From Candidatus Limivicinus sp. (GTDB taxonomy: Bacteria; Bacillota; Clostridia; Oscillospirales; Oscillospiraceae): a stretch of DNA of 62,368 nt. A program made the position numbers and the translations under genes. The stretch spans positions 1 to 62,368 of the forward strand of contig JARHZW010000100.1 in NCBI GenBank assembly GCA_029264685.1. Reading direction: 5' to 3'. The notes under the pieces are model-generated. The model was given only the letters and a program-made list of their open reading frames with translations, did no database searches and was not told where the DNA came from. Positions 35,644 to 39,042 of this stretch are shown here, one piece after another (positions within the stretch are counted from its first letter, which is position 1; each line of letters starts with the position of its first letter).

Positions 35644-35680
35644 AAAAAAATGGCATTTCCGTCAAGGAAATGCCATTTTT
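35644..35680. terminator. Bidirectional terminator
   Basis: aaaaaatggcatttcc gtcaa ggaaatgccattttt between convergent genes. Confidence 0.85.
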
Positions 35681-35687
35681 TATTAAC

Positions 35688-37349
35688 TTAATCATTAAAT
35701 TCGCAGATAAAACCGATAGTACCCTTGTACCACTTGGGATAGTCAGCCACGGGATCGTTTCGGCTGTCGTTATATTCCCAGCCCTTGTTATTCCAGAGCA
35801 TAAGATAATCTTCTTTAGCTCCGTCATAACTGTCAACATAGGATGGTTCATCACCCTCGCCCCAGGGTGCAGGGAAGAAATCTACCTTTTCTCCGTTTTC
35901 CCAAACAAGGGTGTCGTTTATTCTGTGGCAGCCTATCCAGACACGGCCTAAACCGGCCTCCTCTGCAATACCGATAACCTTCTGAAGCTCCTCTGCATCG
36001 TTTATAACTACAAGGTAGCCGCCCTTCTCAATGCACAGGTCTCTTGCCTCGGTCCAGCTCACGTCATCCTTAAAGATTTCGTATCTTGAAGTCTTGGGGG
36101 CAGGAGTTTCTTCGAGTGCAGGTGTCTCTGCTTCAGGCGTCTGCTCTCCTGTAGCAGGGCTTTCGTCAGGAGTTTTCTCAGGCTCTGCAATGTCTATCAC
36201 CGGATTATCTGTAGGCATAAGGCCGATATTGGATTCGTCCTTATCAATAACCGGCAGATTGTCTATCTGACCTGAATTTTTATCCTCGTCCTTCCACTGG
36301 AAATCGTTAAGCCACGCATTAACGATTATAGCTGTAACAACGATAACAGCGCATATCACAAGAACTGCCGCCAAAGAGCGGTTGCGGCTTTTCTGGGCCT
36401 TGGCAGCCGTCTTTTTCTCATGCTCCGCATTGACTCCGTACCGAACGGCAGGCTGAATATTCTGCTTCAAAACCACAGGCTCGAGTTCGGGATTTCTGTC
36501 CTCAGTGAGAACGGGAACCTGCTGTTTTACCCGCTCCGGAGCTTTTCTCTGTTCCGGCTGTCTCCTTGGCTCAGGCGGTCTCTTGGGCGCAGGTCTTCTG
36601 GGTTTTCTCTTTACAGGCTCGTAAACCTTGATTTCTTCCTCCTCAGCCGCAGGCTCCTCCGGAATAACCGTTTCCTCAGGCCGGGCGGGAATTTCGGCAG
36701 CAGGCGCTTCTTCCTCCTGAGGCTCATCCACGCCGTTTTCTATAATGTCTACCATTATCCGCTCAATGTCAGACAGGTCATCATCATTTTTATTAAAGAG
36801 AGTCTCGGCACTGGATGCTCCGTTAAGATACAAATTCTTATCGCAGTTATCAAGCATTATCTTCATTTCTTCCAGATTTTTGTATCTGGCCTCCGGCTTA
36901 AAGCTGGTAGCCTTGCAGATTATTTCCGAAAGTCTTCTGCCGGCAGCTTTGGGTGCCGGAAAATCGTCCCCGTTCATGCGGCGGAGCTGAGGATTTTCAC
37001 ATTCTCCCTCATACGGAAGTCTGCCCTTATTAAAGGCATAATACAGCACCAGTCCCAGAGAATACACATCTGAAGCCTGAGATTTTTTCCCGTTCCAGTA
37101 AAGCTCAGGTGCAAGGAAATCCAGCTCCTGTCCTTCCCAATCCCCGCTTTTTGCAGGACCCAGGGCAACTCGGCCTTCGGCGTCCATACAAATATTTTCA
37201 GGGTAAATACCACCTCGATAAGCTCTTGTACCAACCTCTGCCACCACTCTGGCGCAAAGCTTGGAACCGAACTCGCAAAGCTCCTGCCGGTTCATATTCA
37301 CTATCTGCTTACCGAGAGTTTTACCAGGCTCAAATTTTATATCTGTCAT
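35688..37349 (-). CDS. Predicted membrane receptor: C-lobe-only pseudokinase, TM helix, extracellular C-type lectin-like domain
   Basis: Kinase C-lobe pattern YRGGIYPENICMDAEGRVALG...DFLAPELY...ASDVYSLGLVLYYAFNKGRLPYEGE...PEARYKNLEEM; TM AVLVICAVIVVTAIIVNAW; CTLD SWTEARDLCIEKGGYLVVINDAEE...VWIGCHRINDTLVWENGEKV...GFICEFND. Strong SD gaggagg before ATG 37349. Confidence 0.85.
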   Translation of the reverse strand: MTDIKFEPGKTLGKQIVNMNRQELCEFGSKLCARVVAEVGTRAYRGGIYPENICMDAEGRVALGPAKSGDWEGQELDFLAPELYWNGKKSQASDVYSLGLVLYYAFNKGRLPYEGECENPQLRRMNGDDFPAPKAAGRRLSEIICKATSFKPEARYKNLEEMKIMLDNCDKNLYLNGASSAETLFNKNDDDLSDIERIMVDIIENGVDEPQEEEAPAAEIPARPEETVIPEEPAAEEEEIKVYEPVKRKPRRPAPKRPPEPRRQPEQRKAPERVKQQVPVLTEDRNPELEPVVLKQNIQPAVRYGVNAEHEKKTAAKAQKSRNRSLAAVLVICAVIVVTAIIVNAWLNDFQWKDEDKNSGQIDNLPVIDKDESNIGLMPTDNPVIDIAEPEKTPDESPATGEQTPEAETPALEETPAPKTSRYEIFKDDVSWTEARDLCIEKGGYLVVINDAEELQKVIGIAEEAGLGRVWIGCHRINDTLVWENGEKVDFFPAPWGEGDEPSYVDSYDGAKEDYLMLWNNKGWEYNDSRNDPVADYPKWYKGTIGFICEFND

Positions 37350-37437
37350 CGGATTTCCTCCTCATCCGCAGTCTGTCTCTAATGGAATTATGTTAACACA
37401 CCGAGCAGACTTCGTCAATGCCGCAATACAAAAAGCT

Positions 37438-39042
37438 TTATTTTTCCATTTTTTCGGCTATGCTGTTAAGCTGATCGGCATAGGATGAAAGCTCCTTGTT
37501 TGACCTGCCTTCCAGCTTTCTGCACGCACGGATAACTCTTTCCGCAGCGGCAACAAGGCGCTGGAACACAGCGTTTGACCTTGTATTTTTCTCTTTGGCT
37601 TTTTGTATCGGCTTTCCCTTTGTTATTTCTATAAAGTCACCCTTAATAAGGTCAAAACTTGTTCCGCTGTAGGGCGCATAGGCTTTATAGCCCAGCTCTT
37701 CGTTCAGAGTTTTTGTAAAGCTGTCTGCCGAATCCGGATCGCCGTGGTTTATGAACACCATGTCAGGCTTTTTTTCAAAACCGGAGAGCCAGCGGATAAG
37801 CCCTGCCTTATCGGCGTGACCGCTTACGCCGGGCAAAACATCTATTGCTGCCCTGACATTGATGTCTTCATTGAATATTTTGACCTTGTCGGCACCGTCA
37901 ACAAGGATTCTGCCCAAGGTCCCTTCTGCCTGATATCCCACAAACAGTATTCTGCATTCCGGCCGCCATAGGTTGTGCTTCAGGTGGTGGCGGATTCGGC
38001 CCGCATCGCACATACCGCTGGCGGATATAATAACCTTAGGCGTTTTATCAAGGTTTATTGCAACGGAGTCAGCCTGAGTGACCGAAAGCTCAAGACCGGG
38101 GAATATGAGCGGATTTACGCCCGAACGCATAACAGCCTGCATTTCCTCGTCAAGAAATTCGGTGTCGCACTGCAAAAACACGCTTGTCGCCTCCACCGCA
38201 AGAGGACTGTCCACATACACAGGGAAATCTTTATGGCCTTTAACAAGCCCTTTTTCTTTGATTTCCCTAATGAAATACAGCATTTCCTGAGTGCGGCCTA
38301 CGGCAAATGACGGTATAACCAGATTGCCGCCTGCATCAAGGGTCTCCTGTATACGCTCCGTCAAGGCTGCCACATAATCCACCCGCTGTACATTGTGGAG
38401 TCTGTCGCCGTATGTGGATTCCATAACAAGATATTCCGTGTCTTTAACAAACTGAGGATCTCTTAGTATGGGCTGGTGTAGATTTCCTATATCTCCGCTG
38501 AACGTAATTTTTCTTGTCTCGCCGTTTTCATGCATCCACACCTCTATGGCAGCGGAGCCAAGCAGGTGTCCCACATCAGTAAGTCTTATTGAAAAAGCCT
38601 CATTCACCTGTATAAGCTCATTGTATGAGCATGGTCTCATGCAGCCCAAAAGCCCCTCCGTATCCTCCAGAGTATACAGAGGCTCTACCGGCGGCTCACC
38701 ACGGCGCTTTGCCTTGCGGCTTTCCCATTCGGCATCCGACATCTGAATATGGGCGCTGTCACGAAGCATAATATCACAGAGTGAGCAGGTGGCAGAGCTT
38801 GCATATACCACTCCTCTGAAGCCTTTTTTATAAAGCAGGGGCAGATTACCCGAGTGGTCTATATGGGCGTGGGTAAGCAAAACAAAATCAATTTCTTCCG
38901 GATTCACGGCCAGAGTCTGATTTACAAAAATGTCTTTGCCCTGCTCCATACCGCAGTCTACAAGGCCCTTTTTGTTCCCTGCCTCAATCAGAGTGCAGCT
39001 TCCGGTGACTTCATGGGCAGCTCCGTAAAATGTAAGCTTCAT
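37438..39042 (-). CDS. MBL-fold / beta-CASP family RNA-metabolising hydrolase
   Basis: LTHAHIDHSGNLPLLYKKGF (HxHxDH), FSGDIGN, ISASGMCDAGRIRHHLKHNLW, SGHADKAGLIRW. Confidence 0.93.
   Translation of the reverse strand: MKLTFYGAAHEVTGSCTLIEAGNKKGLVDCGMEQGKDIFVNQTLAVNPEEIDFVLLTHAHIDHSGNLPLLYKKGFRGVVYASSATCSLCDIMLRDSAHIQMSDAEWESRKAKRRGEPPVEPLYTLEDTEGLLGCMRPCSYNELIQVNEAFSIRLTDVGHLLGSAAIEVWMHENGETRKITFSGDIGNLHQPILRDPQFVKDTEYLVMESTYGDRLHNVQRVDYVAALTERIQETLDAGGNLVIPSFAVGRTQEMLYFIREIKEKGLVKGHKDFPVYVDSPLAVEATSVFLQCDTEFLDEEMQAVMRSGVNPLIFPGLELSVTQADSVAINLDKTPKVIISASGMCDAGRIRHHLKHNLWRPECRILFVGYQAEGTLGRILVDGADKVKIFNEDINVRAAIDVLPGVSGHADKAGLIRWLSGFEKKPDMVFINHGDPDSADSFTKTLNEELGYKAYAPYSGTSFDLIKGDFIEITKGKPIQKAKEKNTRSNAVFQRLVAAAERVIRACRKLEGRSNKELSSYADQLNSIAEKMEK

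Follow-up and report, generated by a model that had tools for sequence, protein, structure and literature searches.

A putative membrane receptor or scaffold family joining a kinase C-lobe without an N-lobe to a C-type lectin-like ectodomain

The locus and its neighbours

The window, that is, the whole stretch of 62,368 nucleotides analysed here, carries on its minus strand a gene of 553 codons (positions 35688–37349; ATG at 37349, stop at 35688–35690) that encodes the C-terminal half of a protein kinase domain, a transmembrane (TM) helix and a C-type lectin-like domain (CTLD), and that has full-length relatives in many genera. The earlier note on this DNA did not state the strand, but each of the motifs it singled out (RGGIYPEN at residues 45–52, LAPEL, DVYSLGLVLYYAFNKGRLPY and PEARYKNLEEM) was located in the translated frame. 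The strong ribosome binding site that it reported is also there to be read: GAGGAGG (37357–37363, minus strand), separated from the ATG by the seven nucleotides AAATCCG. The next gene upstream, which has the same orientation, ends at 37438 and leaves a gap of 88 bp, close to the 90 bp given before and with no room for an upstream N-lobe. Inside this gap lies a weak promoter-like site, TTGACG-17-TAACAT (37390–37418, minus strand), recognised purely as a consensus match. At the other end, a bidirectional terminator-like hairpin (35645–35681; 16-bp stem, MFE -21.6 kcal/mol, z -7.6) separates the gene from a convergent M3-type peptidase gene, which was not found beside other half-kinase loci. The 62-kb window (1–62368) contains no tRNA, nor any Rfam match at gathering score.

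The upstream gene (37438–39042, minus strand) encodes a 534-residue, ribonuclease-like protein of the beta-CASP metallo-beta-lactamase fold (Pfam Beta-Casp, 2.4e-39, plus RMMBL). In NCBIfam this protein scores highest with the models for the type VII CRISPR Cas14 nuclease (394 bits, against a cut-off of 800) and aCPSF1. The gene was found upstream and on the same strand at 21 of 73 loci, mostly some 20–230 bp away, and not at the others; it is a lineage-specific neighbour and perhaps forms an operon with the half-kinase gene. A universal operon partner was ruled out, since the beta-CASP gene is the only widely recurrent neighbour and the remaining ones are clade-specific; no partner gene is linked to the half-kinase gene across all loci.

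A kinase C-lobe, a membrane segment and a lectin-like ectodomain

The N-terminal domain (residues 8–177; 36819–37328, minus strand) consists of kinase helices D to I without an N-lobe. An AlphaFold model of residues 1–187, built with 67 sequences, reached a pLDDT of 92.9 and a pTM of 0.89, and we assign to it, in our own naming, the element order D, E, beta7-8, EF, F, G, H and I. Foldseek matched the model to protein kinase domains (E 1.9e-8, probability 1.00) with a TM score of 0.70 for the query and 0.52 for the target, as expected for a C-lobe on its own. In profile comparison the closest solved structures were PknB (E 7e-18), PknE, StkP and PknA. Pfam kinase profiles match the protein in the C-lobe part only (PK_Tyr_Ser-Thr, positions 168–249 of 258, E 2.3e-7), and the nearest NCBIfam model, a PASTA kinase, is matched far under its cut-off and from profile position 174 onward only. 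The C-lobe fold proposed in the earlier note is therefore borne out by both the AlphaFold model and the Foldseek search, and the domain does start at helix D, here as in the relatives, with neither glycine-rich loop nor VAIK lysine ahead of it.

The catalytic residues are gone. In the remnant of the catalytic loop (RGGIYPENI, residues 45–53; 37191–37217, minus strand) the HRD aspartate has become glycine and the catalytic-loop lysine tyrosine, while the proline and the asparagine are kept. The loss of both residues had been noted for this protein and holds throughout the alignment of 67 half-kinases: the aspartate occurs in none of them (glycine in 48), the lysine likewise in none (mostly arginine, tryptophan, tyrosine or histidine), and the HRD arginine is replaced by glycine in 66, whereas the Mg-site asparagine persists in 62. 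The former beta8-DFG region reads VALGPAKSG (residues 61–69; 37143–37169, minus strand), and alignment against 22 full kinases agrees with the claim that DFG is absent, the activation loop of the half-kinases being about 7 residues (alignment columns) shorter. The structural anchors, by contrast, are invariant in all 67 sequences: P81 and E82 of the APE motif, D94 of helix F and R155, the arginine before helix I, together with C32, W85 and R124. W85 closes the segment APELYW (residues 80–85; 37095–37112, minus strand); a tryptophan directly after APE is not among the common residues at this site in full kinases, which marks it as a signature of the family, and it might occupy the substrate groove now left empty.

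Pseudokinases usually retain both lobes. The present domain has what defines a kinase-fold C-lobe (helices D to I with the APE glutamate, the helix F aspartate and the salt-bridge arginine) and lacks what defines an active Hanks-type Ser/Thr kinase (N-lobe, glycine-rich loop, VAIK lysine, HRD aspartate and DFG aspartate). Judged by its sequence and model, it is a pseudokinase made of the C-lobe alone: the predicted cytoplasmic domain has neither the elements needed for ATP binding (N-lobe, VAIK lysine, DFG) nor the HRD aspartate needed for phosphotransfer.

The C-lobe is followed by a cytoplasmic linker (residues 178–328; 36366–36818, minus strand), acidic and then basic, in which proline, glutamate and arginine make up 38% of the residues, by a TM helix recognised by hydropathy and basic on its inner side (residues 326–346; 36312–36374, minus strand), and by an extracytoplasmic stalk rich in proline, glutamate and threonine (residues 350–420; 36090–36302, minus strand). 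A single hydrophobic segment C-terminal to the half-kinase was present in 74 of 76 relatives, and lysine plus arginine were richer on the N-terminal than on the C-terminal side of the TM helix in 73 of 76, which together argue for an N-in, C-out orientation and for the PknB-type receptor topology put forward in the earlier note.

The ectodomain (residues 421–553; 35691–36089, minus strand) was modelled as a CTLD with a pLDDT of 91.6 and a pTM of 0.87, and Foldseek matched it to collectin-11, CD23 and the mannose receptor; with the Pfam Lectin_C match (E 5.9e-7) these results agree with the C-terminal CTLD reported earlier. The domain has the CTLD fold, the WIG motif and the C1–C4 cysteines (Cys439 and Cys549), but it departs from the classical four-cysteine type: the C2–C3 pair is absent, the C2 position is mostly tyrosine and most members have two or three cysteines. 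C1 and C4 are both present in 52 of 66 CTLDs, both absent in 10 and mixed in 4, counts that are inflated by relatedness; this paired behaviour fits a disulphide outside the cell. In MBP-A the Ca2+ site-2 ligands are E185, N187, E193, N205 and D206. The positions that we take to match them, within the pattern EPS...EDY...YND, are in this order E (65/66), S (60/66), E (66/66), N (65/66) and D (66/66), so that four of the five are conserved and one asparagine is now serine (EPN to EPS). The human lectin DCIR, which binds glycans, also carries EPS (PMC3679074). The earlier note had left sugar and protein undecided as ligands; the conserved site-2 ligands and the DCIR example tip the balance towards sugar, and we would give even chances to a Ca2+-dependent glycan as the ligand. 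The CTLD dN/dS of about 0.04–0.22 in close pairs rules out a diversity-generated domain.

Descent and selection of the half-kinase family

Among 401 genomes of the same bacterial family, 271 gave matches, a number that includes ordinary kinases and other CTLD proteins and is thus not an orthologue count; from these matches we read open reading frames and, after removal of redundancy, retained the 67 distinct half-kinase domains used above. Within the genus, 49 of 61 genomes carry one copy (185–225 bits; open frames of about 516–592 residues). When 297 genomes sampled from the order and 398 from the phylum were searched, matches above 200 bits came from this one family only, and the next best reached at most 139 bits. 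All the matches outside the family that were read (L119–L134) have an N-lobe of about 110–170 residues ahead of the C-lobe, and nearly all have HRDxxPxN and GDFG, L119 being degraded. In a C-lobe tree (quick, unrooted and with some long rows) the 67 half-kinases are separated from all other sequences by a single branch, the SH-aLRT of which is 100. Because they form one clade and the outside relatives that were read have an N-lobe, the simplest account is that N-lobe and catalysis were lost once, in what looks like a single ancestral event.

The truncation is not peculiar to this assembly, since the 67 distinct relatives share it. In most of them the half-kinase domain begins within about 50 residues of the N-terminus; the long N-terminal tails of one clade (L082, L092, L100, L103–L105, L110 and L111) are rich in proline and glutamate and have no kinase motif, so they were rejected as hidden N-lobes. 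An assembly truncation or an N-lobe hidden by a frameshift, which the earlier note had named as a way in which it could be wrong, is likewise ruled out by the 88-bp gap and the equally truncated relatives. The C-lobe dN/dS is about 0.08–0.19 in close pairs, similar to that of the CTLD and below that of the linker in most pairs, and by this measure the half-kinase is kept under purifying selection in its C-lobe-only form. Since selection has preserved it unbroken across many related species, the protein probably represents a genuine family of receptors or scaffolds rather than a broken gene.

Several relatives show the same parts in other combinations. The CTLD is joined to a full kinase in two proteins of the same bacterial family (L050 and L051), to zinc ribbon, TM and VWA segments in others (L042–L047 and L049), and to a zinc ribbon in short proteins (L048 and similar ones in the set L042–L049 and L052), so that the same type of CTLD sits on unrelated inner parts. 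Conversely, the half-kinase occurs with an SH3b domain between the TM helix and a degenerate CTLD (L034–L039), a second receptor design on this domain, and in one protein with SH3b and no detected CTLD (L041). Three relatives from the same genus (L012, L013 and L015, in genomes G225, G110 and G265) keep linker, TM helix and CTLD and have lost the half-kinase, which is therefore not always needed.

Known systems and candidate function

The protein resembles several known systems, from each of which it also differs: (i) PASTA-type Hanks kinases (PknB, PrkC, StkP) share with it a cytoplasmic kinase fold with a homologous C-lobe, a juxtamembrane linker, one TM helix and an extracytoplasmic ligand domain, but the half-kinase lacks the N-lobe, the HRD aspartate and DFG, and a CTLD replaces the PASTA repeats. 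(ii) EssB/YukC of the type VII secretion system T7SSb is likewise a Firmicutes protein with a cytoplasmic pseudokinase, a TM segment and an extracellular part, and it does not bind ATP (PMC9600267, PMC12599244); in contrast, EssB keeps a degraded glycine-rich loop region (N-lobe), its ectodomain is helical and it works as part of a secretion machine, whereas no T7SS genes were found among the recurrent neighbours of the half-kinase loci, which are the beta-CASP hydrolase and clade-specific genes. (iii) The bacterial STK pseudokinase families ActPs1-3, GLW, CP1, DYD and DLHK also have degraded catalytic motifs; lectin domains and truncated kinases go unmentioned in the text of a review of such families, which refers to the N-lobe solely for dimer contacts. 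(iv) The cyanobacterial STK-CLec variable proteins linked to diversity-generating retroelements (DGRs) combine an N-terminal kinase domain with a C-terminal C-type-lectin-fold domain (PMC7517822), but there the CLec domain is diversified by the retroelement, while here a Lectin_C-type CTLD is under purifying selection and the kinase is halved. (v) The full kinases L050 and L051 have the same kinase-TM-CTLD order, yet in them the N-lobe, HRDVKPAN and GDFS are all retained, and in the tree they group with full kinases.

Membrane pseudokinases as such are already known, EssB/YukC and MviN among them (PMC12599244, PMC9600267). Neither an N-lobe-less bacterial pseudokinase family nor a Firmicutes kinase-lectin receptor is described in the literature searched, which covered few subscription papers. 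It is about an even call whether we are dealing with an undescribed bacterial family in which a lone kinase C-lobe acts as an autonomous signalling or docking module on the inner side of a lectin receptor, in a single large family of Clostridia from gut and rumen. If so, a selected C-lobe-only family would mean that the C-lobe can stand alone in bacteria as an interaction module, and would offer a natural system for finding its binding partners; it would also link Ser/Thr-kinase-like signalling in gut bacteria to a lectin fold of the animal type, with a ligand that could be a wall or a host glycan.

Taken as a whole, the protein is best read, with reasonable though not high confidence, as a single-pass, N-in/C-out membrane receptor or scaffold of a conserved C-lobe-only pseudokinase family that senses glycans and docks a partner. 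The earlier note had called it a catalytically dead, signal-sensing or scaffold receptor: the anatomy (C-lobe only, dead by sequence, CTLD) stands and is family-wide, whereas the sensing or scaffold role is putative. Under this reading the CTLD would bind a cell-wall, self or host/mucin glycan through Ca2+, binding would alter the spacing or clustering of receptors, and the C-lobe would offer a docking surface to a cytoplasmic or membrane partner. That the protein is a non-catalytic docking receptor or scaffold seems likely.

A serious rival, to which we give a clear minority share, holds that the protein is a surface adhesin in which the CTLD does the work and the half-kinase does not signal but is a fixed anchor, tying the protein to a partner or site in the cytoplasm. 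CTLDs do ride on N-terminal parts as unrelated as VWA, a zinc ribbon and a full kinase, and EssB/YukC offers an example of a membrane pseudokinase that acts as a scaffold (PMC9600267, PMC12599244). The strong selection on the C-lobe calls for some specific interaction, which an anchor could account for as well. That the C-lobe is instead the vestige of a kinase which was truncated N-terminally and is now being lost, beside a CTLD part that alone is functional, would suit the three same-genus relatives that have TM helix and CTLD without it. It is contradicted by the selection data, with full-length frames in dozens of genera, one clade, a C-lobe dN/dS of about 0.1–0.2 and invariant anchors, and is very improbable. 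We give hardly any credence to a split kinase, in which another gene would supply the N-lobe to complete the C-lobe: the break does fall near the border of hinge and helix D, but every member has lost the catalytic aspartate and DFG, and the genome yielded no Pkinase match of the kind expected for a separate N-lobe.

Returning to the docking receptor, its most economical partner would be the PASTA kinase PrkC, which, or the substrates of which, the half-kinase may tether or sequester. A genome-wide search for such partners, suggested in the earlier note, gave Pkinase matches in PrkC and the half-kinase gene only, and Lectin_C matches in the half-kinase gene only; as no further Hanks-type kinase was found, PrkC is the simplest candidate. 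Its presence is no specific evidence for a partnership, since PrkC-type kinases are found in nearly all genomes of the genus, and we regard PrkC as a tentative choice, more probably wrong than right. A role as an anti-phage defence kinase was rejected, as the PADLOC matches reach the generic C-lobe only. The genome has the gene order rlmN-prpC-prkC, broken by a contig end, and PASTA matches on contigs C116 and C51 and none in the half-kinase protein; the PASTA repeats on a separate contig probably belong to PrkC, which is apparently split over two contigs (L117 at the end of C77, L143 on C116). The last 50 or so residues of the reading frame at the end of C77 are unrelated to kinases and resemble an assembly edge.
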